Source of the DNA: Oscillospiraceae bacterium | GTDB lineage: Bacteria > Bacillota > Clostridia > Oscillospirales > CAG-272 | Reading direction: 5' to 3' | Assembly (NCBI GenBank): GCA_015064345.1 | Contig: SVSK01000004.1 | Location: 1-53,574, forward strand | DNA: 53,574 bases | Shown here: piece after piece, positions 14,085 through 24,769 of the stretch | How the letters are laid out: each line of letters opens with the position of its first letter | Position numbering within the stretch: position 1 is the first letter of the stretch | Program-made: the position numbers and the translations under genes | The notes under the pieces: generated by a model | The model's input: only the letters and a program-made list of their open reading frames with translations | What the model was told of the DNA's origin: nothing | Database searches by the model: none

Positions 14085-15008
14085 ATGCAGCTTTGTAATC
14101 CGCAAACCGTTCGCGGACTTCTTGATAAATACGGTCTTGCCCCCAAAAAAGCATTCGGACAGAACTTTCTGATAAATCCCATGGTGCCCGAACGAATTGC
14201 AGACGCATCTGCATCCTTTGCGGATCAGTCGAAGCCAATGGGCGTTATCGAGATAGGACCCGGTGTGGGTGCTCTGACACAGTATCTTTGTCAGAATTAC
14301 GATAAAGTTGTGGCTATTGAGATAGACCGCGGACTCATCCCCCTCCTTGGCGAGGCTCTTGAAGAATTCGACAACGTAACTGTGGTTGAGGCAGACTTTA
14401 TGAAGATAGATCTGCCCGAGTTTGTCAGAGAACACTTCTCCGACATTCTTGACGCAGGCGGAACGATAGGCGTTTGTGCGAATCTTCCGTACTACATTAC
14501 AACACCTGTTATCATGAAGCTTCTCGAATCCTATCCCATGACTGAAAAGCTTCCGTTCTCGTCAATCGTCGTCATGATCCAGCTTGAAGTGGCAAGAAGA
14601 CTTGCAGCAAAAGCGGGAAGCGATGACTACGGCTCCATTACCGCCTCCATTGCACTCAGAGCAAAGGCAGAGAAGCTGTTTGACGTGTCTGCCGGAAACT
14701 TCCACCCAGTTCCGAAGGTAGCATCCGCGGTTGTGGGCATCATACCTCACAGCGGAATCAGGGAAGTGTACCCGGATGCTCCTGCCGACGAAGATGAGTG
14801 CCTGGCATTTGCCGATGATGTGAATGATCTGATCAACCTCGCATTCGGTCAGAGAAGAAAGACTCTTGTCAACGCACTTAGCGGAAAATACTCAAAAGAA
14901 AAAACCGCAGCGGCACTTGAGACTTGCGGCATTAGAGCTGATATAAGAGGAGAAAAGCTTTCTGCATCAGAATTCTGCAGGATAACTGATATTCTCACGA
15001 CGAAATAA
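14085..15008 (+). CDS. ksgA: 16S rRNA (adenine1518/1519-N6) dimethyltransferase
   Basis: 307 aa. KsgA/RsmA dimethylates two adjacent adenines in the 3' hairpin of 16S rRNA with SAM as donor, a late check in 30S assembly. Visible: KKAFGQNFLINP, SAM motif I EIGPGVGALTQYL, catalytic motif IV NLPYYITTPV, and the C-terminal helical domain with FGQRRKTLVNAL. Length is slightly above the typical 270-290 aa. The start follows CGGAG. Last gene of the apparent glyS transcript, ending at a shared terminator. Confidence 0.95.
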   Translation: MQLCNPQTVRGLLDKYGLAPKKAFGQNFLINPMVPERIADASASFADQSKPMGVIEIGPGVGALTQYLCQNYDKVVAIEIDRGLIPLLGEALEEFDNVTVVEADFMKIDLPEFVREHFSDILDAGGTIGVCANLPYYITTPVIMKLLESYPMTEKLPFSSIVVMIQLEVARRLAAKAGSDDYGSITASIALRAKAEKLFDVSAGNFHPVPKVASAVVGIIPHSGIREVYPDAPADEDECLAFADDVNDLINLAFGQRRKTLVNALSGKYSKEKTAAALETCGIRADIRGEKLSASEFCRITDILTTK

Positions 15009-15943: not shown

Positions 15944-16056
15944 ATAAATACTCCAATATACCATTCATAACTAAATTATAACAAAAAAACATCCGCCGTA
16001 ACACAAATAATCTTTACAAACATGTTAATATTTTGTTAATCGGAAGGGCATAGAAA

Positions 16057-16092
16057 CAAAAAGGAGACTGACTCAAAATGAGCAATCTCCTT
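16057..16092 (-). terminator. terminator of rpsU
   Basis: Minus strand: AAGGAGA and TCTCCTT arms followed by TTTTGTTT, immediately downstream of rpsU. Confidence 0.75.
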
Positions 16093-16122
16093 AATTTGTG
16101 CATTAATTCCGAAAGAAGTCGA

Positions 16123-16299
16123 TTATTTGTACTTACGCTTTCTTGCCGCTTCAGCCTTCTTCTTTCTCTTTACGCTGGGCTTCTCATAGCATTCTCTCTT
16201 ACGAAGCTCTGCCTGGATACCGGAACGCTGACACAGTCTCTTAAAACGACGAAGTGCACTGTCGAGAGACTCGTTCTCTTTTACTCTGATTTCTGCCAT
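16123..16299 (-). CDS. rpsU: 30S ribosomal protein bS21
   Basis: A 58-aa protein beginning [19 protein letters not shown] and ending in a very basic tail ([19 protein letters not shown]), the standard form of bS21. It binds near the anti-Shine-Dalgarno region of the 30S subunit. The frame is short enough to be missed by length cut-offs. A GGGAGGG site lies upstream of the ATG, a consensus promoter 59-87 bp upstream and a terminator directly downstream, so it is a complete monocistronic unit. Confidence 0.95.
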
Positions 16300-16357
16300 C
16301 TGTATTCCCTCCCTTCGCTTTGGGCAAAGGTAACAATAATTCGTTTACCTCTTGAAT

Positions 16358-16386
16358 ATTATACTTGAGTAATATCCTTTTGTCAA
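16358..16386 (-). promoter_or_regulatory. consensus sigma-A promoter of rpsU
   Basis: Minus-strand TTGACA (16381-16386) and TATAAT (16358-16363) with a 17-bp spacer, a full consensus match. Confidence 0.88.
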
Positions 16387-16475
16387 TAGGTTTCAAATAT
16401 TTATTTTTAATTATTGCAATATTTTGGGGCATTTCAGATGAATTTTAGCGAAACCTGAGCGATTTACTTTACCGG

Positions 16476-16943
16476 TTATCTTCTTGCATTGCAGCCCGGT
16501 GCGCGTGACTTATCAAATGCCGGATTATAGCCGTAGTAGTTGCGTGAGTCAAGGGTGTCAAGCACGCGACCAAGTGCCTCACCGAAGCGCTGATAGTGGA
16601 CCACTTCACGCTGTCTGAGGAACTTGATAGGATCGCAAACATCAGGGTCATCGATCAAGCGAAGCAGATTGTCATAAGTTGTTCTTGCCTTCTGCTCTGC
16701 GCCCATGTCCTCGTGAAGATCGGTGATGGGATCTCCCTTTGACTGAATATATTTCATATCAAAAGGAACACCTGCGGCAGAAGCGGGGTAGACACCTGCT
16801 GTGTGGTCCACATAGTATGCATCAAATCCGTTTTTCTTGATGTCATCCATGCTCATGTTTCGAGTAAGCTGAGTAAAGATCGTTGAAATGATCTCCATGT
16901 GTGCAAGTTCTTCTGTACCTATTTGCTGCACATAATGCATCAT
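16476..16943 (-). pseudogene. cotJC: cotJC 3' part, separated from its 5' part by an inserted element
   Basis: The last 144 residues of a CotJC (manganese-catalase-like spore coat protein) lie at 16910-16476. The 11 codons before them (16943-16911) come from the inserted element and its core, giving a chance ATG. The cotJC-derived part begins at ELAHMEIIST and contains four of the five expected di-manganese ligands: Glu65 and His68 (ExxH), Glu136 in EQKARTTYDN and His169 in REVVHYQRF, numbered in the rejoined protein. It continues to an Arg-rich C-terminus. No spore-type promoter or ribosome site precedes the chance ATG, so it is probably silent until rejoined with the 5' part at 20365-20556. 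It is better seen as one half of a split gene than as decay. Confidence 0.9.
16911..16922 (+). other. attachment core, left junction
   Basis: TTCTGTACCTAT, identical to the core at 20365-20376. On the minus strand it reads ATA GGT ACA GAA, the Ile-Gly-Thr-Glu codons of CotJC residues 61-64. The sequence to its left is cotJC; to its right is the element, with TGCATC at 16936-16941 as the probable recombinase arm. Confidence 0.85.
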
Positions 16944-16984
16944 TTTTTCTTCTTATGCATCATATGTTCGTATCGGAGGTGCGT

Positions 16985-17176
16985 ATGAAAAACAGATACA
17001 CTATGATAAATTCGGGTCTGTCGGACGGGTCAAAACTGAAAATCGGCAATAAGTTTAATAGGCTCCTGTGCGAGGGAATTATTTTGTCACTAAGGGATAG
17101 CGGCCACATTTGCGAAATGGAATACAGGAGGGCAAGAATCACGGTAGATCAAAAATTCGGGGAGAAACGCAAATGA
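16985..17176 (+). CDS. 63-aa protein overlapping the recombinase; candidate excision factor
   Basis: A small basic protein (MKNRYTMINSGLSDG to QKFGEKRK) with CGGAGG just before its ATG. Its TGA overlaps the recombinase ATG in an ATGA, so the two should be translationally coupled. I recognise no family, and there is no membrane segment or signal. Serine-integrase elements generally need a small recombination directionality factor to switch from integration to excision. Size, charge and coupling make this the best candidate in the element, but that role is inference. A reading frame extends upstream across the att core into cotJC DNA and was rejected. Confidence 0.6.
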   Translation: MKNRYTMINSGLSDGSKLKIGNKFNRLLCEGIILSLRDSGHICEMEYRRARITVDQKFGEKRK

Positions 17177-18504
17177 AAATTGCAGCTTACTGCCGAGTAT
17201 CTACCGAAAAATCAGATCAGATCAATTCGTATATTGGTCAGATACGCTATTTTTCAGAGATTACAGAGAGAAACACGGAATGGGAACTGTATAATATATA
17301 CGCCGACGAAGGTATAAGCGGTACGTCAACATCGGGGCGCAGTGAATTCAACCGCATGATATCCGATGCTTATGACGGAAAGTTCCAGCTGATTGTCACA
17401 AAAGAGGTCAGCCGCTTTTCACGAAATATTCTTGATACAATCGCCTATACCCGTGAGTTGAAGCGGCTCGGTGTTGGAGTCATCTTCCTGACGGATGGGA
17501 TAAATACCTTGGACGCAGACTCAGAGCTGCGTCTTTCAATAATGAGTTGTATTGCCCAGGAGGAGAGTCGCAAAACATCGGAGAGAGTTAAATGGGGACA
17601 AACGCGGCAGATGGAGAAGGGAGTGGTGTTTGGCAGATCATTGCTTGGATACACGGTTAAAAGCGGAAAGATGGCAGTCGAGCCAATTGGAGCGGAGCTT
17701 GTCAGGAGCATATTCAGCAAATATGTTTTTGAACAGAAGGGCACAACAGTTATTTCGAGAGAAATGGAGGAAATGGCGAGAGAAATGGGAATAATTCGCC
17801 AATGGACACCAGCATATATTTCTAAAGTACTGAAGAATGAAAAATATGCAGGAGATCTGCTTCAAAAGAAGACCGTCACACCGGATTATCTCACTCATAC
17901 AAAAAAATACAACCGCGGAGAGGAAAGTCAGATATACATCAGAGACCACCATGAGCCGATAGTCGACAGGGAGGTGTGGAACGAAGCCCAAAGCAGGCTT
18001 GAAAGAAGAAATAAGCAGAAGGGCGGTACATCATGCTCTGTGAGATATGCTTTTTCAGGGCGAATAAAGTGCGGAGTATGTAAAAAAAGCTTTGTCTCCC
18101 GTAACAGATCAGGGAAAAACGGTAAATACAAAACTTGGGTATGCGGTGGCTCACTTGCGAGCGAGGTAAATCGTGGAGAGAAATGCACGGTCGGAGTGTC
18201 GGTGAGGGACTTTGAACTCTACTCAATGGTAAAGCTTATTATATCTTTGATAGATATTGACAGAGGTAAGTTACTCAAAATTGTTATGGATGCATGTGAC
18301 AATTCAAATATTAGTGAAGCGCGCAGAAGGGAAATTTCAAAAGCAGCAGAAAGCCTTCTGTCGGGGGAGACAGTCTGCGATGCGATAGTCAAGCAGTTGG
18401 TTGAGACTGTATTCGTATATCCCGATAAACATTGTGAGGTGAAACTGAAAAATACAGATAGCATGTGGACTTTTGTGCGTGATAATCATAGGGAAACCAT
18501 GTAA
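17173..18504 (+). CDS. large serine recombinase
   Basis: 443 aa. The N-terminal resolvase/invertase domain (about 1-140) has the catalytic serine at residue 10 in AAYCRVSTE, and the conserved arginine-rich segment VTKEVSRFSRN. The middle is the recombinase domain (GYTVKSGKMAVEP to TPAYISKVLKNEKYAGDL). A zinc ribbon follows (CGVC at about residue 316, then VCGG and KC), and a C-terminal basic region. It should cut and rejoin the two att cores flanking this element. It starts at 17173, overlapping the small ORF, with GGGGAGA upstream. Codon use is less biased than in neighbouring housekeeping genes, consistent with a mobile origin. Function by family is confident; its role in cotJC rejoining is inferred from the att sites. 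Confidence 0.92.
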   Translation: MKIAAYCRVSTEKSDQINSYIGQIRYFSEITERNTEWELYNIYADEGISGTSTSGRSEFNRMISDAYDGKFQLIVTKEVSRFSRNILDTIAYTRELKRLGVGVIFLTDGINTLDADSELRLSIMSCIAQEESRKTSERVKWGQTRQMEKGVVFGRSLLGYTVKSGKMAVEPIGAELVRSIFSKYVFEQKGTTVISREMEEMAREMGIIRQWTPAYISKVLKNEKYAGDLLQKKTVTPDYLTHTKKYNRGEESQIYIRDHHEPIVDREVWNEAQSRLERRNKQKGGTSCSVRYAFSGRIKCGVCKKSFVSRNRSGKNGKYKTWVCGGSLASEVNRGEKCTVGVSVRDFELYSMVKLIISLIDIDRGKLLKIVMDACDNSNISEARRREISKAAESLLSGETVCDAIVKQLVETVFVYPDKHCEVKLKNTDSMWTFVRDNHRETM

Positions 18505-18553
18505 TATTATGGCGAAAAAGGAATAATAATTTATTATTTCTGTGAAATAACTA

Positions 18554-18582
18554 TTGCATAATTTATCATCGTGTGGTATAAT
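18554..18582 (+). promoter_or_regulatory. sigma-A-type promoter of the antiporter
   Basis: TTGCAT (18554-18559) and TATAAT (18577-18582) with a 17-bp spacer, about 60 bp before the antiporter start. The cargo gene therefore has vegetative-type expression independent of the recombinase. Confidence 0.75.
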
Positions 18583-18639
18583 TATTCCAAATCATACGAC
18601 TATGTCGGATTAATGATGACTAATTATCTGGAGGACATT

Positions 18640-20301
18640 ATGACTAAGACAAAAAAGATCGTACTCGCCGTTGCGATAGTGCTGATTATTGCGGCACTCG
18701 TATATGCGGGCGTTACAGATGCGGCAAACGGAACAGTAGCTTGTCCAGACTGTGGCACAGCGGCTGATCTCGCTTGCGAAACATGCGGCGGTGAAGGTGC
18801 TGTTCGTGGTACACTTTGGGCTATTCTGCCACCCGTTATTGCTATCGGACTCGCGCTCATCACAAAGGAAGTTTATTCCTCACTCTTTATCGGTATCATT
18901 GCCGGTGGACTTCTCAGCACAGGATTCTCATTTACCGGTACTGTAGATGCAGTTATCAACGACGGTCTCATTGCCGCTGTATCCGGTACTGCCGGTATCT
19001 TTATCTTCCTTGTAGAACTTGGAATTATCGTTGCCCTTATTAATAAGGCAGGCGGCTCTGCTGCATTCGGTAACTGGGCAAAGACTCATATCAAGTCCCG
19101 TGTAGGCGCAATGCTTGCTACATTCCTTCTTGGTGTGCTTATCTTCGTTGACGACTATTTCAACTGCCTCACAGTAGGCTCCGTAATGCGTCCCGTTACA
19201 GACTCCAAGAATATCTCCCGCGCAAAGCTTTCATACATCATCGACGCAACAGCTGCTCCCGTTTGTATGATCGCGCCCATTTCCTCTTGGGCTGCTGCAG
19301 TTGCAAGCTATGCCGAAGAAGGTCAGGGTCTCTCTCTGTTCATCAAGGCTATTCCTTACAACTTCTATTCCATCCTTACACTCGTATTCATCATCGCAAT
19401 TTCTCTTATGAAGTTTGACTACGGCCCGATGAAGCTTCACGAGTTCAATGCAATCAACAATAATGACCTTTACACAAGCGGCGACAAGAATGAGGCTGTT
19501 GAAGTAACTCCTTCCTCTAAGGGTAGAGTTATCGACCTCATTATCCCCATTATTCTTCTCATCGGCTTCTGCGTTCTCGGTCTCGTTTACGTTGGCGGTA
19601 TATTCGACGGTGCTACATTTGTTAACGCATTCGCTGATACAGATGCAACAGTAGGTCTGCCTTGGGGCTGCCTTATCGCTCTTGCACTTATCATCATTTA
19701 TATGCTCGCTCGCGGCGTTGTTTCTCTTAAGGAAGCAATGGAATGTGTTCCTCAGGGCTTCATTGCAATGGTTCCCGCGATCCTCATTCTCACATTTGCA
19801 ACATCCCTTAAGAACATGACGTCTCTCCTTGGCGCAAAGTACTACGTTGGTGATCTTATGGCAGGTAACGCTGAAACACTCGGCGCATTCCTTCCCGCTA
19901 TCATCTTCCTTGTTGCTTGCGTTCTCGCATTTGCAACTGGTACATCTTGGGGTACATTCGGTATCCTCATTCCTATCGTTACAGCTATTTTCCCCGCAGG
20001 AAGCGAACTCCTCATCATCGGTATGTCCGCATGCCTCGCAGGTGCTGTTTGCGGCGACCACTGCTCTCCCATCTCCGACACAACTATCATGTCCTCTGCG
20101 GGCAGTCAGTGCAACCACCTCAACCACGTATCCACTCAGATGCCTTACGCAATCACCGTAGCAGCAATTTCCGCTGTTATGTTCGCAATCTCCGGATTTG
20201 TTCAGAACATCTGGATCTGCCTGCCCCTCGGTATCGTTCTTACAATCGCAACACTGTTTGTTATCAAAGCTGTTACAAACAAGAAGACTGCACAGCAGTA
20301 A
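18640..20301 (+). CDS. NhaC-type Na+/H+ antiporter family membrane protein
   Basis: 553 aa with about a dozen hydrophobic segments. The family core is seen in FVDDYFNCLTVGSVMRPVTD, APVCMIAPISSWAAAVA, FATGTSWGTFGILIPI and CGDHCSPISDTTIMSSAGS, which are typical of NhaC/IT-superfamily exchangers. Between the first membrane segment and the rest is an extracytoplasmic CPDCG...CETCGG pair, like a small zinc or disulfide knuckle and unusual for the family. The start at 18640 follows TGGAGG. It sits inside the cotJC-intervening element, has its own promoter and terminator, and uses the same highly biased codons as glyS and nrdD, unlike the recombinase. The exchanged solute could also be an organic acid or amine. 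Confidence 0.8.
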   Translation: MTKTKKIVLAVAIVLIIAALVYAGVTDAANGTVACPDCGTAADLACETCGGEGAVRGTLWAILPPVIAIGLALITKEVYSSLFIGIIAGGLLSTGFSFTGTVDAVINDGLIAAVSGTAGIFIFLVELGIIVALINKAGGSAAFGNWAKTHIKSRVGAMLATFLLGVLIFVDDYFNCLTVGSVMRPVTDSKNISRAKLSYIIDATAAPVCMIAPISSWAAAVASYAEEGQGLSLFIKAIPYNFYSILTLVFIIAISLMKFDYGPMKLHEFNAINNNDLYTSGDKNEAVEVTPSSKGRVIDLIIPIILLIGFCVLGLVYVGGIFDGATFVNAFADTDATVGLPWGCLIALALIIIYMLARGVVSLKEAMECVPQGFIAMVPAILILTFATSLKNMTSLLGAKYYVGDLMAGNAETLGAFLPAIIFLVACVLAFATGTSWGTFGILIPIVTAIFPAGSELLIIGMSACLAGAVCGDHCSPISDTTIMSSAGSQCNHLNHVSTQMPYAITVAAISAVMFAISGFVQNIWICLPLGIVLTIATLFVIKAVTNKKTAQQ

Positions 20302-20309
20302 TCACTAAT

Positions 20310-20350
20310 TCAAAAAAGATCCGTTATCCTTCGGGGTAGCGGATTTTTTG
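20310..20350. terminator. bidirectional terminator inside the element end
   Basis: AGATCCG...CGGAT arms extended by TTATCC/GGGTAG with a TTCG-type loop, and T-runs on both strands. It ends the antiporter transcript and, from the other side, any cotJ transcript entering the unexcised element. Confidence 0.85.
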
Positions 20351-20364
20351 ATGCAATTTATGTA

Positions 20365-20376
20365 TTCTGTACCTAT
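20365..20376 (+). other. attachment core, right junction
   Basis: TTCTGTACCTAT, identical to the left core. On its left, inside the element, GATGCA at 20350-20355 mirrors TGCATC near the left core. On its right is the cotJC 5' part. Confidence 0.85.
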
Positions 20377-20578
20377 ATCGGTAAGTATGCCGGCAACATC
20401 GCGGTTGGGCATAACGTAACGCTGATTAAGGTATCTCATTGACGCACCGAGTTCACCGTCCGGACCGCCAAGCTGTGAGAGGATCATCTTAGCGAGAGCA
20501 GGATTGGGATTTTTGATCTTTACAGGGTACTGCAGTTTCTTTTCATATATCCACATAATTCATTATATCCTTTCTTTA

Positions 20579-20824
20579 TCAAAGTTCCCAGGGCCATGGC
20601 TCGCTTACCCATTTCCAACAATCTGTTGACTGATTATTGTACATGGTAAGCGGACCGTATTTTTCTTCATAGACGGCAAGCGCCTCTTTATACAGCTTAC
20701 TGTATTTGTGATAGTGGTGAAGGGCGGCGCGGCAATGAGGATGGGTGTCAAGATACAAAACGGTCTCAGTGACAACAAAGGAATAGTTCTGTATTAATTT
20801 GAGTAATTTCTTTTGCTCGTTCAT
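20579..20824 (-). CDS. cotJB: spore coat protein CotJB
   Basis: 81 aa. The family signature is visible: ETVLYLDTHPHCRAALHHYH, then YEEKYGPLTMYNNQ and the C-terminal WVSEPWPWEL. CotJB is made in the mother cell with CotJA and CotJC and is needed for their assembly in the inner coat. The start at 20824 has AAGGAG upstream; an 18-codon upstream extension was excluded. It lies 22 bp before the cotJC start. Confidence 0.92.
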   Translation of the reverse strand: MNEQKKLLKLIQNYSFVVTETVLYLDTHPHCRAALHHYHKYSKLYKEALAVYEEKYGPLTMYNNQSTDCWKWVSEPWPWEL

Positions 20825-20856
20825 AATAATGTTTTCTCCTTGCTTATCTTGATCTC

Positions 20857-21243
20857 TTAACGACAACTGCTGCCGCATCCATAATAAAATGGCTTATACA
20901 GCTCCGTAAACATAGTTCCGTGAGACATAGCATCCTCTTCGCAGTACAGATTCTGCCAAATCTGATCGGGCGTATAGGCCATTGCAAGAGAATAAGACGC
21001 GAGACAGTTGTTTTTGCCGCAGCCTTCATCACACTGTGAATTGTCCGGACGGCTTGGTCTTGTGATTTCCTGCCGAGCTTCAACGCGTGATCTGACCTGA
21101 CAGCGACTTGCCGCGGAATTTGCTGATCCGTAGTCTCTGTCGCCATATGAGCAGCATGTTGTATTTTCTTCATTCAGTATTCTCTCAAGCATATCGTCGT
21201 CGATACGCTCGCGGGGAGTGCTGGGGTATTTTCTGTATTCCAT
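20857..21243 (-). CDS. cotJA: spore coat protein CotJA
   Basis: 128 aa. The C-terminal part (LAMAYTPDQIWQNLY, then EDAMSHGTMFTELYKPF) matches CotJA; the N-terminal 65 residues are a variable, Cys- and Arg-rich extension longer than in Bacillus. First gene of the cotJ operon, 32 bp before cotJB. A CGGAGG lies about 15 bases before the ATG, rather far. A CATATACT on the minus strand at about 21300 resembles a sigma-E -10, but I find no matching -35, so no promoter is claimed. Confidence 0.87.
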   Translation of the reverse strand: MEYRKYPSTPRERIDDDMLERILNEENTTCCSYGDRDYGSANSAASRCQVRSRVEARQEITRPSRPDNSQCDEGCGKNNCLASYSLAMAYTPDQIWQNLYCEEDAMSHGTMFTELYKPFYYGCGSSCR

Positions 21244-21353
21244 GATCTTCTGATAATTCCTCCGAGATAGTTTGAGAACGGTTTACATTCTCATGTGCAG
21301 TATATGTTAAGAAAGTGAGTCGGGACACAAAAAAGTTTTCTTTATAACACAAC

Positions 21354-21382
21354 TTGTAAATGTGGCAAAAGTATGGTATACT
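21354..21382 (+). promoter_or_regulatory. sigma-A-type promoter of rnhA
   Basis: TTGTAA (21354-21359) and TATACT (21377-21382) with a 17-bp spacer. Confidence 0.75.
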
Positions 21383-21410
21383 GTAGCAAAATGATATTGA
21401 CGGAGAGAAT

Positions 21411-21854
21411 ATGCTTAAAGTAGATATATACACAGACGGCTCCTGCCTTAAAAATCCGGGTCCCGGTGGCTGGGGAGCAATACTTGTGTACAAGGGTGTA
21501 GAGAAAGAGCTGTCAGGCGGTGAGGCAGACACTACCAACAACAGAATGGAGCTGACAGCCGCTATAGAGGCGCTGAGAGCTCTTAAGAAGCCTTGCAAGG
21601 TTACAATGACTACCGACTCAAAGTACCTCTGTGACGGGATAGGAAAGGGCTGGGCGCAGTCCTGGAAGAATAAGGGCTGGAGACGAAGCGATAATTCACC
21701 CGCGCTCAATCCTGATCTGTGGGAGGAGCTTCTCACACTATGCGAGACTCACGATGTTGAGCTTGTTTGGGTAAAGGGGCACGCAGGCCACCCTTATAAT
21801 GAACGCTGTGATGAAATGGCGCAGTCAAGGGCGAGGGAATACCAGAATGGATGA
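21411..21854 (+). CDS. rnhA: ribonuclease HI
   Basis: 147 aa. Degrades the RNA strand of RNA-DNA hybrids. All catalytic carboxylates are present: Asp in [16 protein letters not shown], Glu in NNRMELTA, Asp in [11 protein letters not shown], and the C-terminal [14 protein letters not shown] block. The standard short bacterial form. The ribosome site is CGGAGAG. It overlaps the start of the following DUF1294 gene by 8 bp. Confidence 0.95.
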
Positions 21855-22131
21855 GCTTTTAATAAAAATCATCCTCTTGTGGATTGCCGTTGTTTCTCTT
21901 GTTTCCGTAATCATTACTGTCGCAGACAAAATAAAAGCGCGGCGTGGAGCGTATAGAATCTCCGAGGCCGCACTTATGATCTTTTCAGCTCTTGGCGGAT
22001 CTGTCGCAATGCTTGTTACAATGCTGATTATCCGTCATAAGACAAAACATATTAAATTCATGCTGGGAATACCGATTATTATACTGTTTCAGTTGATCAT
22101 CGCAGTTTACGCAGTCACTCGCCTGCTTTGA
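21847..22131 (+). CDS. DUF1294 family membrane protein
   Basis: 94 aa. Matches DUF1294 in [18 protein letters not shown] followed by [13 protein letters not shown], with three hydrophobic segments. A small integral membrane protein of unknown function. Start chosen at 21847, inside the end of rnhA, giving [12 protein letters not shown]; coupling to rnhA is likely. Its end overlaps the end of the convergent comEC by 17 bp. Confidence 0.8.
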
Positions 22132-24433
22132 TTACCTGCCTGTATGTAGCACTGCCAAGTCGCATTGGGTGAGAATCTGTGTATTCTTTCAGTTCTTCAT
22201 CCATGTGCTCATACGCATCATCACTTACTATCATAACCTTCGGGTCACCTATAAGGCTGATTCCGAAGGATTTTTTATATACAGGACTGTGCACGGCGAA
22301 AATGAGAGTATCCGCATCATCGGTGAGGGACAGAACATCATAATTCGACTCATTGAATGAACCTGAGAGAATTACCGTGGTTTCGTCCCCAACATCAATT
22401 CTTACTGACGTAATCGGATGCGATGACCTACTGATATAAGTTCGGTCGGCAAGGGTAATTATTGCGTCTCCAAATACAAAACTGCCCCCACGCGGCAAAA
22501 CCAGTATATCAATTCCGCCTGCTTCTGCAAACTCACACATGGAAGCGAAAATACCTTCTTCGCGCTCGTTAATTGGCTCGGGCAAGATCACGCATCGCAA
22601 AATCTCCCTGCTGCTGATTTGAGAAAGAAGACTTATGTGCTTGTTATGGTAATGAGTCAGAAGCAAATATTCTATCTCGCATCCGTGCAGCTCTGCAGAT
22701 TCGTGAATCAGACTGCTTGCAAATCCATATGAGGCATCAGAGATATCTGCAATTAGGATCTCTCCATTTGACTTAATAACAAATCCGTCATTCTTGTTTT
22801 CGGTAATGTATGAAATACGCACATTCACCTTGTCAAAGGATTGCACGGCGAATATTGTGCAGAAGAATACAGCGCATAAGGAAAATGAGCTGATGAGAAG
22901 TGTGATCCTTCGTTTTTTCTCTGCTAACGGAAGAATTATCAATAACGCAGCAATGGGAATGAGAAAATATACGCTGAAGTTATAGTTTACTGAAAGCATC
23001 ACCCATTTTCCGCCACCTACCCAACCGGCAAGTCTGTTTAGAAGTTCAGTAAATCCTGTGATGCAAAATGAGAAGGGAGTTATAAACACGGCGAGGGGAT
23101 ACAAAACCAAATATGCCATCGAGATATACATAAACAGCGTGATCAGCGGTATAAATATTACATTTGCAGGGATAGATACGAGGGAAATTTCTCCGAAATA
23201 TAGCCAAATGATAGGCATTACCGAGAGGGTTACAAGAGTAGTAAGGGCAAAGGTCTCTCCGCAAGAAACAAGGAATCGCTTGAACCTATTTCCACCGCGC
23301 AGATTAATTCCGTGCTTTTCCCGAAGCTCTCTGTATACAGATCCTTTGACAGTCTGAAACACGATACAGCTGTATGTTGCGAGGAAGGATAGCTGTAAAC
23401 CGCAGTCAAGCGTGGCGTAGGGGTTAAGCAGCACAAGAATCGTTCCTGCTATGGCAAAGGAGTTGATTATGTTTGCACGCTTGAAGAGCAAGATTGAGAA
23501 CTGTGCCAAAAGATGCATGACACCCGCTCTGACAACAGAGGCAGAAAAACCTGTAACGCCCATCATGAACAGGATAACTGCCATATTTATCATCGCTCTG
23601 TGCTTTCTCTTGACTTTTGTTTTCTTGAATGCACTCTCAAGCATGGCAATTATTATCGAGAAGTGGGTTCCGCTGACCACAAGGAGATGAGTTATTCCTA
23701 TCCTCGTGAAATCCCGTTCAATGGTGTCTGATAGGTATTCCTTGTTGCCGAGGAGAACAGCGGAAGCAAACCCACCCGACTCATATCCGCAGTGAGCCAC
23801 AAGCATGGATGTAAGGCGCCCGTTGATTTTGTTAAAAAATCTTCCAATGTCTATTGAGCCGTCAACACCCACCGCAGTTAGATTCTCATCTTTGGCAACA
23901 AGCAAGATGTTTTTAGAGAGATAATATCTTTTACCGTCAAATACTGTACTGCTTACTGAATCAAGTGTTGAATAGAGAACACTGCCTGATATAAGGCTTC
24001 CTTCCTCAAGATATCCTGCTTCTGTATTAAGAAGTAGCTTTGTTCCTGCCGGGAGATACGCTGACTCTTTGACTGTAGCAACGTATCGTGAGGCATATGA
24101 AAGTGCAAACACACAGTCTTCTACCTCAAGCAAAACATTGTCTTCTTTGCCTGCGTTCTTTTCAATATTGTCTATGCGAATATTTAAGCAATATATGGAA
24201 ATACATCCCGCAACAATGGTGGCGGCAAGGATCAAGTATAGCCCGAGTCGAGTTGCCTTGTTTATAATACGGTTAAGGTCTGTCCGTGAGAGGAAAAATA
24301 TGAGTAAAATTGATAATACTGAGGCGCAAATGAATACCATCTTTGCTTTCATGTCGAGATAAGCAAAAATGCAGGATGACACGAAGAAGGAGAGAAACAT
24401 TGCCACAGTTGGATATTTTTCAATCAGCTTCAT
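22115..24433 (-). CDS. comEC: ComEC/Rec2-type DNA-uptake membrane protein
   Basis: 772 aa. Order: N-terminal membrane segments and DUF4131-like region, the competence domain (SGTHFSIIIAMLE; VTGFSASVVRAGVMHLLAQ, about 240-500), then a C-terminal metallo-beta-lactamase-like domain (about 525-760). ComEC forms the channel that takes single-stranded DNA across the membrane. In the C-terminal domain the metal motif reads THYHNKH, where the usual HxHxDH has Asp, so nuclease activity is doubtful. The start at 24433 follows TCGGAG; 13 upstream codons were excluded. No other competence gene is visible in the window. Confidence 0.87.
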   Translation of the reverse strand: MKLIEKYPTVAMFLSFFVSSCIFAYLDMKAKMVFICASVLSILLIFFLSRTDLNRIINKATRLGLYLILAATIVAGCISIYCLNIRIDNIEKNAGKEDNVLLEVEDCVFALSYASRYVATVKESAYLPAGTKLLLNTEAGYLEEGSLISGSVLYSTLDSVSSTVFDGKRYYLSKNILLVAKDENLTAVGVDGSIDIGRFFNKINGRLTSMLVAHCGYESGGFASAVLLGNKEYLSDTIERDFTRIGITHLLVVSGTHFSIIIAMLESAFKKTKVKRKHRAMINMAVILFMMGVTGFSASVVRAGVMHLLAQFSILLFKRANIINSFAIAGTILVLLNPYATLDCGLQLSFLATYSCIVFQTVKGSVYRELREKHGINLRGGNRFKRFLVSCGETFALTTLVTLSVMPIIWLYFGEISLVSIPANVIFIPLITLFMYISMAYLVLYPLAVFITPFSFCITGFTELLNRLAGWVGGGKWVMLSVNYNFSVYFLIPIAALLIILPLAEKKRRITLLISSFSLCAVFFCTIFAVQSFDKVNVRISYITENKNDGFVIKSNGEILIADISDASYGFASSLIHESAELHGCEIEYLLLTHYHNKHISLLSQISSREILRCVILPEPINEREEGIFASMCEFAEAGGIDILVLPRGGSFVFGDAIITLADRTYISRSSHPITSVRIDVGDETTVILSGSFNESNYDVLSLTDDADTLIFAVHSPVYKKSFGISLIGDPKVMIVSDDAYEHMDEELKEYTDSHPMRLGSATYRQVIKAGE

Positions 24434-24496
24434 ATACCGCTCCGAAAGTTGTGATACCAAATAATACCACATTATTTCGGAAAAGTATATAGTACT

Positions 24497-24769
24497 TTAC
24501 AAAATATCCTCCAGCACGTCAAACATAGTGCAGGGAGTCACATTTCCATTCACGAGAATGTCAAAAATTTGTTTTGCTGTCTTCAGCTTTCGCGTGATGT
24601 CAAAGGCTAACTTGTATTCGGTCACACCGTTCTGTGTCGCGTCGACTCTCACGGAATATACCGTATTGCAGCTGAGAATATATTTGCTTTTCAGTAAGCT
24701 GTATTCAAGAAAAATTTCCTCCACAGTAGTCTTTTTGTATTTGATTAGCTCAAAACGATGATTATCCAT
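24497..24769 (-). CDS. DUF6514-like small protein
   Basis: 90 aa starting MDNHRFELIKYKK, with GGAG ten bases upstream. The C-terminal block ITRKLKTAKQIFDILVNGN followed by VTPCTMFDVLEDIL matches the pattern I associate with DUF6514 of Clostridia. No membrane segment. Function unknown. It precedes comEC by 63 bp on the same strand and might be co-transcribed. Confidence 0.6.
   Translation of the reverse strand: MDNHRFELIKYKKTTVEEIFLEYSLLKSKYILSCNTVYSVRVDATQNGVTEYKLAFDITRKLKTAKQIFDILVNGNVTPCTMFDVLEDIL

Follow-up and report, generated by a model that had tools for sequence, protein, structure and literature searches.

A small serine-recombinase element that splits the spore-coat catalase gene cotJC and is probably excised in the mother cell

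The spore-coat catalase gene cotJC of an Oscillospiraceae bacterium (GTDB lineage Oscillospirales; CAG-272; assembly GCA_015064345.1) is split by an intervening element that carries a large serine recombinase. The locus lies in the first 53,574 nucleotides of contig SVSK01000004.1, read on the forward strand and hereafter called the window. The element is likely skin-like, i.e., cotJC would be rebuilt by its excision in the sporulating mother cell. This reading, already proposed in a first-pass annotation of the window, is supported by relatives with an intact cotJC, by the undecayed state of the separated halves, by purifying selection on these halves in a sister pair, and by a motif upstream of the recombinase in part of its clade. 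The split described in that annotation is real but not a lone case and belongs to a large set of insertions that use four sites of this gene.

In the proposed mechanism, the attB site used by a large-serine-recombinase element would be located at codon Gly62 of cotJC, within the sequence for the metal-binding motif GTEELAH, and the inserted DNA would have persisted as a compact intervening element of the skin type. Full-length catalase would not be made by vegetative cells, in which the gene would be split. During sporulation, the recombinase, probably together with a small directionality factor, would excise a circle in the mother cell and thereby rejoin cotJC in frame, and the spore would inherit the unrearranged copy. 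That cotJC is a mother-cell gene is suggested by analogy with cotCB and cotD of Clostridioides difficile, whose products are CotJC-type catalases of the mother-cell sigmaK regulon (PMC3789822).

The Split cotJC Gene and Its Junctions

The locus is a cotJABC operon, because CotJB and CotJA, like CotJC recognized by Pfam matches, are the upstream neighbors; all three genes lie on the minus strand. The interruption of cotJC falls after codon 64. The 5' piece matches positions 1-67 of the Pfam profile Mn_catalase (expect value, E, 5.7e-20) and the 3' piece positions 59-193 (E 6.4e-30), the pieces being in the correct order, and CotJC can be aligned with solved manganese catalases. The frame of the 5' piece extends 19 codons further into the element, to position 20305. 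The 12-bp core TTCTGTACCTAT is present in two copies in the window, at 16911 and 20365 only, and no reverse-complement copy is found there. When the 3,454 bp comprising the element and one core are deleted, the reading frame runs uninterrupted from the ATG for 208 codons. The element holds three genes, i.e., a 63-amino-acid open reading frame (ORF), the recombinase, and an antiporter. These data bear out the first-pass annotation, which had claimed a 3.45-kb serine-recombinase element with three genes, the same core at both junctions, and an uninterrupted CotJC of 208 amino acids after removal of the interior and one core. The exactness of the in-frame excision, which it had stressed, is true as well but is no evidence by itself, because excision of any site-specific insertion restores the target; the in-frame join was therefore rejected as a sign of function.

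The crossover probably takes place at the GG of codon Gly62 inside the core. In 22 elements (L146, L188, and L061 being left out), the deduced attP is an inverted repeat about this GG, in which on average 10.1 of 16 positions pair, as compared with 5.1 of 16 for attB and 4 by chance. Pairing is complete, 16 out of 16, in two elements, and the GG is the best center of symmetry in 14 of the 22. When wider arms are considered, the attP of the window has 14 paired positions out of 24 around the GG, the best result among the 14 centers tried. A degenerate pattern of the rejoined site had matches in two contigs.

Recurrence of Split cotJC Genes

With the joined protein as query, full-length cotJC was found in eight of the 25 genomes of the genus (in G008 with one stop in the match) and pieces only in 11 (in G019, the piece ends at a contig end), whilst six gave no match. 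In the family, 107 of 128 genomes matched; two of these have a distant paralogue only, leaving 105 with an orthologue, which is full-length in 61, in pieces only, divided at any of four sites singly or in combination, in 43, and ambiguous in one. Relatives with an intact cotJC, for which the first-pass annotation had suggested a search, thus exist. By their main site, the 43 cut genomes divide into six cut at site C, five at site 0, 14 at site B, 13 at site A, and five at several sites; G102 and G258 apparently are cut a second time at C. For 26 of these 43 genomes the cuts were read in the DNA, and for the other 17 they were deduced from match borders, some of which may be contig ends (as in G065). 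Automatic finding of cores of at least 8 bp succeeded in three out of seven split loci, and the junctions were therefore read by codon. As a control, ksgA (14085-15005) gave a match in 124 of the 128 genomes and was a single piece in 123; in G060, the match begins at residue 63, and no clear cut of ksgA was seen in the 124. A chance split of cotJC is excluded, since many relatives are cut at the same codon.

The four sites are located at about QLGG/PDGE, DIG/TEELAH, LAA/EQKAR, and RFG/DAL (the slash marking the cut) and adjoin metal-ligand motifs of manganese catalase. Some genomes are cut more than once: three pieces share one contig in G033, four pieces are spread over three contigs in G134, and two cuts lie on a single contig of 3.6 Mb in G599. 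When species genomes were scanned with ten recombinases of the A clade, 74 of the best 80 loci had a cotJC piece with its cut near codons 62-64, a border that a few alignments exceed, and the other six had none; this set overlaps with the genus and family sets, at least three contigs recurring. In predicted viral contigs, a cotJC piece was found in 11 of 80 loci, one of them weak. A member of the clade was present in 32 of 393 genomes of a class-wide sample. Among 30 class-wide loci, including the window, 19 had a cotJC piece within 1.5-kb flanks and wider stretches added two more. Thus, with a piece in 21 loci and none in nine, the clade favors cotJC yet is not restricted to it.

The phylogeny of the recombinases follows the sites: those assigned to the four sites, together with those of a site-A variant, fall into five unmixed groups. 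In a tree of 45 rows with six background rows, five label changes were counted, which is the minimum, against a mean of 23.9 after shuffling, and none of 200 shuffles gave a number as low. Support is strong for groups B, 0, C, and the variant and weaker for group A (93/65), the unity of which is partly by construction, because the A rows were picked by similarity to the recombinase of the window (the stretch of L093, one of these rows, is devoid of cotJC pieces), whereas the other rows were picked as lying beside or inside a split. On balance, we lean toward the view that cotJC is a docking hub on which at least five recombinase clades have converged, at four sites beside metal-ligand motifs. 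With two or three insertions in some genomes, the coat enzyme would be assembled by several mother-cell excisions, like DNA-level splicing of a multi-exon gene, and the smallest elements would be gene-carrying introns with resident metabolic cargo.

Several further loci were noted during this survey. In L304, L307, L310, and L312, clade members are found in large genomes without a cotJC piece within 1.5 kb; a small ORF before the recombinase, a 58-codon open stretch, is kept in L307, L310, and L312. In Intestinibacillus massiliensis (L181, at about 9623), the target motif VGTEELAHE lies directly past the recombinase, and no other cotJC piece was found in 17 kb. Tandem copies of the 3' end of cotJC after site C, resembling stacked elements, are found in G224 (L111, 2828-2905 and 3488-3538). 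An open frame extends from the 3' piece for ~1.7 kb upstream across the recombinase region in L199 and L202, possibly as a recombinase-catalase fusion frame. A related recombinase adjoins sigK in L161 (1748-4205); a split sigK was considered there and rejected, as the gene is whole. In the genus mate G008, sigK itself appears to be split, skin-like, by ~7 kb (contig C89, 19554-19853 and 11949-12308), with two stops in the match of the second piece.

Selection on the Separated Halves

Across the split loci, a stop was found in one of 93 5' pieces and in one of 40 3' pieces, counts for which the pieces were found by similarity, so that badly decayed ones are missed, and in which three contigs are counted twice. 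A direct test of selection is offered by L135 and L136, two loci from species genomes that have one common insertion and match collinearly along 14.7 kb with 89% identity. The two 3' halves are separated by 26 synonymous and no nonsynonymous substitutions in 111 codons (p = 3.7e-17 vs. neutrality) and the two 5' halves by 18 synonymous and one nonsynonymous; the 3' match stops at codon 176, and a second cut at site C is possible. The purifying selection on these 3' halves contradicts the permanent loss of a promoterless 3' half. The recombinases of the pair are also constrained, with nonsynonymous (dN) and synonymous (dS) divergences of 0.087 and 0.94, respectively. In a further pair, L088 and L089, the insertions of which may be separate, dN is 0.049 and dS 1.30 in the 3' half. 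When the window was compared with the intact gene of G006, 31.6 synonymous and 14.4 nonsynonymous differences were obtained for the 5' half and 64.2 and 29.8 for the 3' half, and both halves behave much like an intact pair. The gene decay expected after an inactivating insertion was not found, mainly on the evidence of relatives; the halves in the window are open. Nor was there, in the host assembly, a second complete cotJC beside a decayed split copy, which the first-pass annotation had named as counter-evidence. Judging from the relatives, and from L135 and L136 in particular, the separated halves appear to have been kept functional over evolutionary time.

Putative Regulation of the Recombinase

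A sigmaE-type pattern, fixed beforehand, was found upstream of 25 out of 104 clade recombinases, as compared with 4.7 in shuffled sequences (maximum 11). After thinning of near-identical upstream stretches, 24 of 94 remained, vs. 4.9 after shuffling, and two of 33 control recombinases carried the pattern. The duplicate contigs L146, L167, and L188 were left out of these counts and of those of the composite and of start codons given below. Of 100 clade loci, likewise thinned, 20 have a sigmaE/SpoIIID-like composite before the recombinase operon, as compared with a mean of 0.47 after shuffling (maximum 4); this set consists of clade members, some away from cotJC, and close relatives inflate the count. 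The composite occurred once on the other strand and before one of 37 control recombinases. This is a close parallel to the skin element of C. difficile, because the gene for the directionality factor of that element is under the control of sigmaE and SpoIIID (PMC5025042).

Alternative Explanations

Several observations weigh against a reconstruction of cotJC during sporulation. The host assembly contains the integrated form only, with no excised junction and no second or rejoined 3' piece, and two deduced attP patterns found no match in the viral contigs. The sigmaE/SpoIIID-like composite is absent before the recombinase of the window; with its SpoIIID-like box, it was defined post hoc, from the matches to the sigmaE pattern, and a sigmaK-type pattern is not enriched in the clade (12 of 104 vs. 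5.9 in shuffles, maximum 13). The attP of the window is weaker than the others, as 7 of its inner 16 positions pair, and the GG does no better there than another center. The 63-amino-acid ORF and other small upstream ORFs are weakly alike (9-25% identity), and such an ORF is recognized by pattern before only 16 of 90 recombinases that have a small ORF upstream. Furthermore, nine of the 30 class-wide loci have no cotJC piece within 1.5 kb, and the test of selection rests on relatives; the insertion in the window may be young.

If it is, a plain mobile-element insertion may have killed cotJC, the halves being intact because the event is recent. No sister genome having the window's own insertion was found; CotJC-type catalases can, moreover, be dispensable, as in cotCB and cotD mutants. 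Nevertheless, this explanation is quite unlikely in view of the rarity of stops in the pieces, the complete lack of nonsynonymous differences in the 3' halves of a pair with a common insertion, and the repeated occurrence of splits at four sites, where the pieces read keep an open frame on either side. The halves might instead be translated separately to yield a split catalase without any rejoining of DNA, and the 3' piece in the window does have in-frame ATGs within the element (155-amino-acid ORF), although these lack a ribosome-site match. Among 39 3' pieces, an in-frame upstream start is absent from 18, including one that lies at a contig end; a further 18 have a start but no ribosome-site match of at least 5, and three have both. 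On these counts, separate translation is very improbable. The host genome is, like those of most relatives, a fragmented metagenome assembly, which raises the question of an assembly or binning artefact. The possibility is close to negligible, since the split is in mid-contig, the genome of the strain Pseudoflavonifractor sp. An44 contains both cotJC pieces, two cuts occur on the single 3.6-Mb contig, a 3' piece and its recombinase occur on a contig of 4.8 Mb, and ksgA is unsplit.

Excision could also be unlinked to sporulation and serve a switch of the phase-variation or lysogeny type or the transfer of the element itself, with cotJC as a conserved landing site. In line with this idea, related recombinases are found in predicted viral contigs, including L205 and L208, which have a cotJC piece on contigs of 37 and 45 kb, some clade recombinases are located away from cotJC, a mixed population could account for two contigs of G010 that stop at the junction, and, in another species, yin was present in excised form at every time point (PMC10747680). 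However, it is a gene for the spore coat that is interrupted, part of the clade has a sigmaE/SpoIIID-like motif before the operon, and the small elements are without phage genes as judged by eye (PHROG profiles were run on the three proteins of the window only). A role outside sporulation is therefore considered unlikely, and excision in the mother cell remains the preferred explanation.

Genes of the Element and the Host Genome

The features of the locus are listed in Table 1. The recombinase matches a PHROG integrase family with an E of 1.3e-96. Among long solved chains, its best match is YokA (SprA; 9dxh; E 4.5e-13), and among all solved chains, the catalytic-domain chain 3g13. Its orientation relative to cotJC differs among loci: it is opposed in the window and the same in L096 and L316. 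The 63-amino-acid ORF has no match in Pfam, NCBIfam, or PHROG; its position before the recombinase is the usual place for a directionality factor, a role for which it is a candidate, whilst its similarity to others is weak. Of the three proteins of the element, the recombinase alone matches PHROGs (integrase, invertase), and phage structural or replication genes, as expected of a prophage, were not found. An Rfam scan of positions 16000-22000 gave no match, and the numbers of sigma-70 promoter-like sites (14 vs. 10.1 expected) and terminator-like sites (2 vs. 3.7) were uninformative.

Table 1. Coordinates of the element, the cotJ genes, and the recombination sites in the window
Feature	Position	Strand	Basis
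Intervening element, 3,454 bp counting one core	16911..20364		Core-to-core deletion
Core copy at 3' junction (attR); probable crossover GG on cotJC strand	16911..16922		Core and attP symmetry
Core copy at 5' junction (attL)	20365..20376		Core and attP symmetry
Outer inverted repeat TGCATCA of one P arm	16936..16942		Deduced attP pairing
Matching inverted repeat TGATGCA of other P arm	20349..20355		Deduced attP pairing
63-amino-acid ORF before recombinase, candidate directionality factor	16985..17173	+	Weak shared pattern with small ORFs of some relatives
Large serine recombinase, 443 amino acids	17173..18504	+	Resolvase, Recombinase, Zn_ribbon_recom domains
NhaC-type Na+/H+ antiporter, 553 amino acids, cargo	18640..20301	+	Pfam
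3' piece of cotJC, core to stop	16476..16922	-	Mn_catalase profile 59-193
5' piece of cotJC, codons 1-64 including core	20365..20556	-	Mn_catalase profile 1-67
cotJB	20579..20824	-	PF12652, E 1.3e-30
cotJA	20857..21243	-	PF11007, E 1.6e-13

At the cotJC site used in the window, 24 distinct elements with both ends in hand (including L061, with the variant recombinase) measure 3.3 to 9.0 kb, larger ones being missed by the fetched flanks, and the element of the window is the second smallest. The cargo of the other elements at this site, judged by eye, is varied and mainly metabolic. The nhaC gene was matched in 22 of the 25 genomes of the genus and is 92% identical in G006; in the host genome, which is incomplete, the sole copy found is the one inside the element. 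NhaC was rejected as a common cargo, since 217 other loci gave no match at 1e-4 and one weak match (6e-4), and a common position of nhaC was rejected as well, because collinearity with the window is lacking around the gene in G006.

The host assembly (2.0 Mb, 84 contigs) is 79% complete and contains one match to the 3' piece of cotJC. A full-length manganese-catalase paralogue, 33% identical to CotJC, is encoded on contig C3 of this genome (G000; 24046-24612), with no cotJ gene among the neighboring frames read. spoIVA is present, and a sigmaK model has two full-length matches, both below the cut-off and hence designated sigmaE/sigmaK-like. In the relative G010, contigs end at the cotJC junction (the ends of L064 and L065), as a fork of rejoined and split forms might give.

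Implications and Comparison with Known Systems

Spore-gene rearrangement has so far been represented by few separate cases, and cotJC is cut in about two-fifths of the surveyed family genomes having the gene. These dozens of natural replicates bear on whether such elements are parasites tolerated by a disposable mother cell or regulators kept by the host. In practice, cotJC from vegetative genomes may look truncated or missing though it is perhaps intact after rejoining. Furthermore, each recombinase clade constitutes a recombinase with a known site.

Intervening elements in spore genes are known as a kind, the interrupted genes described in the sources consulted being sigK, spsM, spoVFB, spoVR, gerE, and yabG. 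In the literature searched (titles and abstract openings, with few subscription journals and no bioRxiv), cotJC was not found as the host of a splitting element, and the main text of a recombinase survey does not mention cotJ (PMC10083194). The cotJC element resembles skin in sigK in its large serine recombinase, its short core, and the splitting of what is probably a mother-cell gene, the frame of which would be restored by precise excision. Unlike in skin, the host gene encodes a structural coat catalase and not a sigma factor, the element of 3.45 kb is without phage genes, and four sites are used among the relatives of one family, with up to three cuts per genome. The use of more than one site per gene has a precedent, since the skins of Bacillus subtilis and C. 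difficile are located at different sites within sigK (PMC5025042).

Other systems share some of these features. Like the cotJC element, gin in gerE of B. cereus ATCC10987 is of non-phage type and encodes a serine recombinase, GirC; its small factor GirX (42 amino acids) may have a counterpart in the 63-amino-acid ORF. The gin element is distinguished by its size of 28.6 kb, its three recombinases instead of one, and its location in a transcription-factor gene (PMC5595907). The prophage phi027 of C. difficile R20291 lies beside a CotJC-type catalase gene; in contrast to the cotJC element, it is adjacent to the gene and does not split it, and no spore-linked rejoining is described in the available part of that report (PMC11222575). 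SP-beta in spsM, vfbin in spoVFB, vrin in spoVR (PMC4191935), and yin in yabG (PMC10747680) likewise interrupt spore genes, and those described excise and rebuild the gene (PMC4191935, PMC10747680). These are described as prophages or prophage-like, whereas the cotJC element is compact and carries cargo, and several recombinase clades use one gene. Thus, two sites in one gene were already known from sigK, whilst three aspects appear to be new: cotJC as the interrupted gene, the use of four sites with multiple cuts in a gene, and the size of 3.45 kb.

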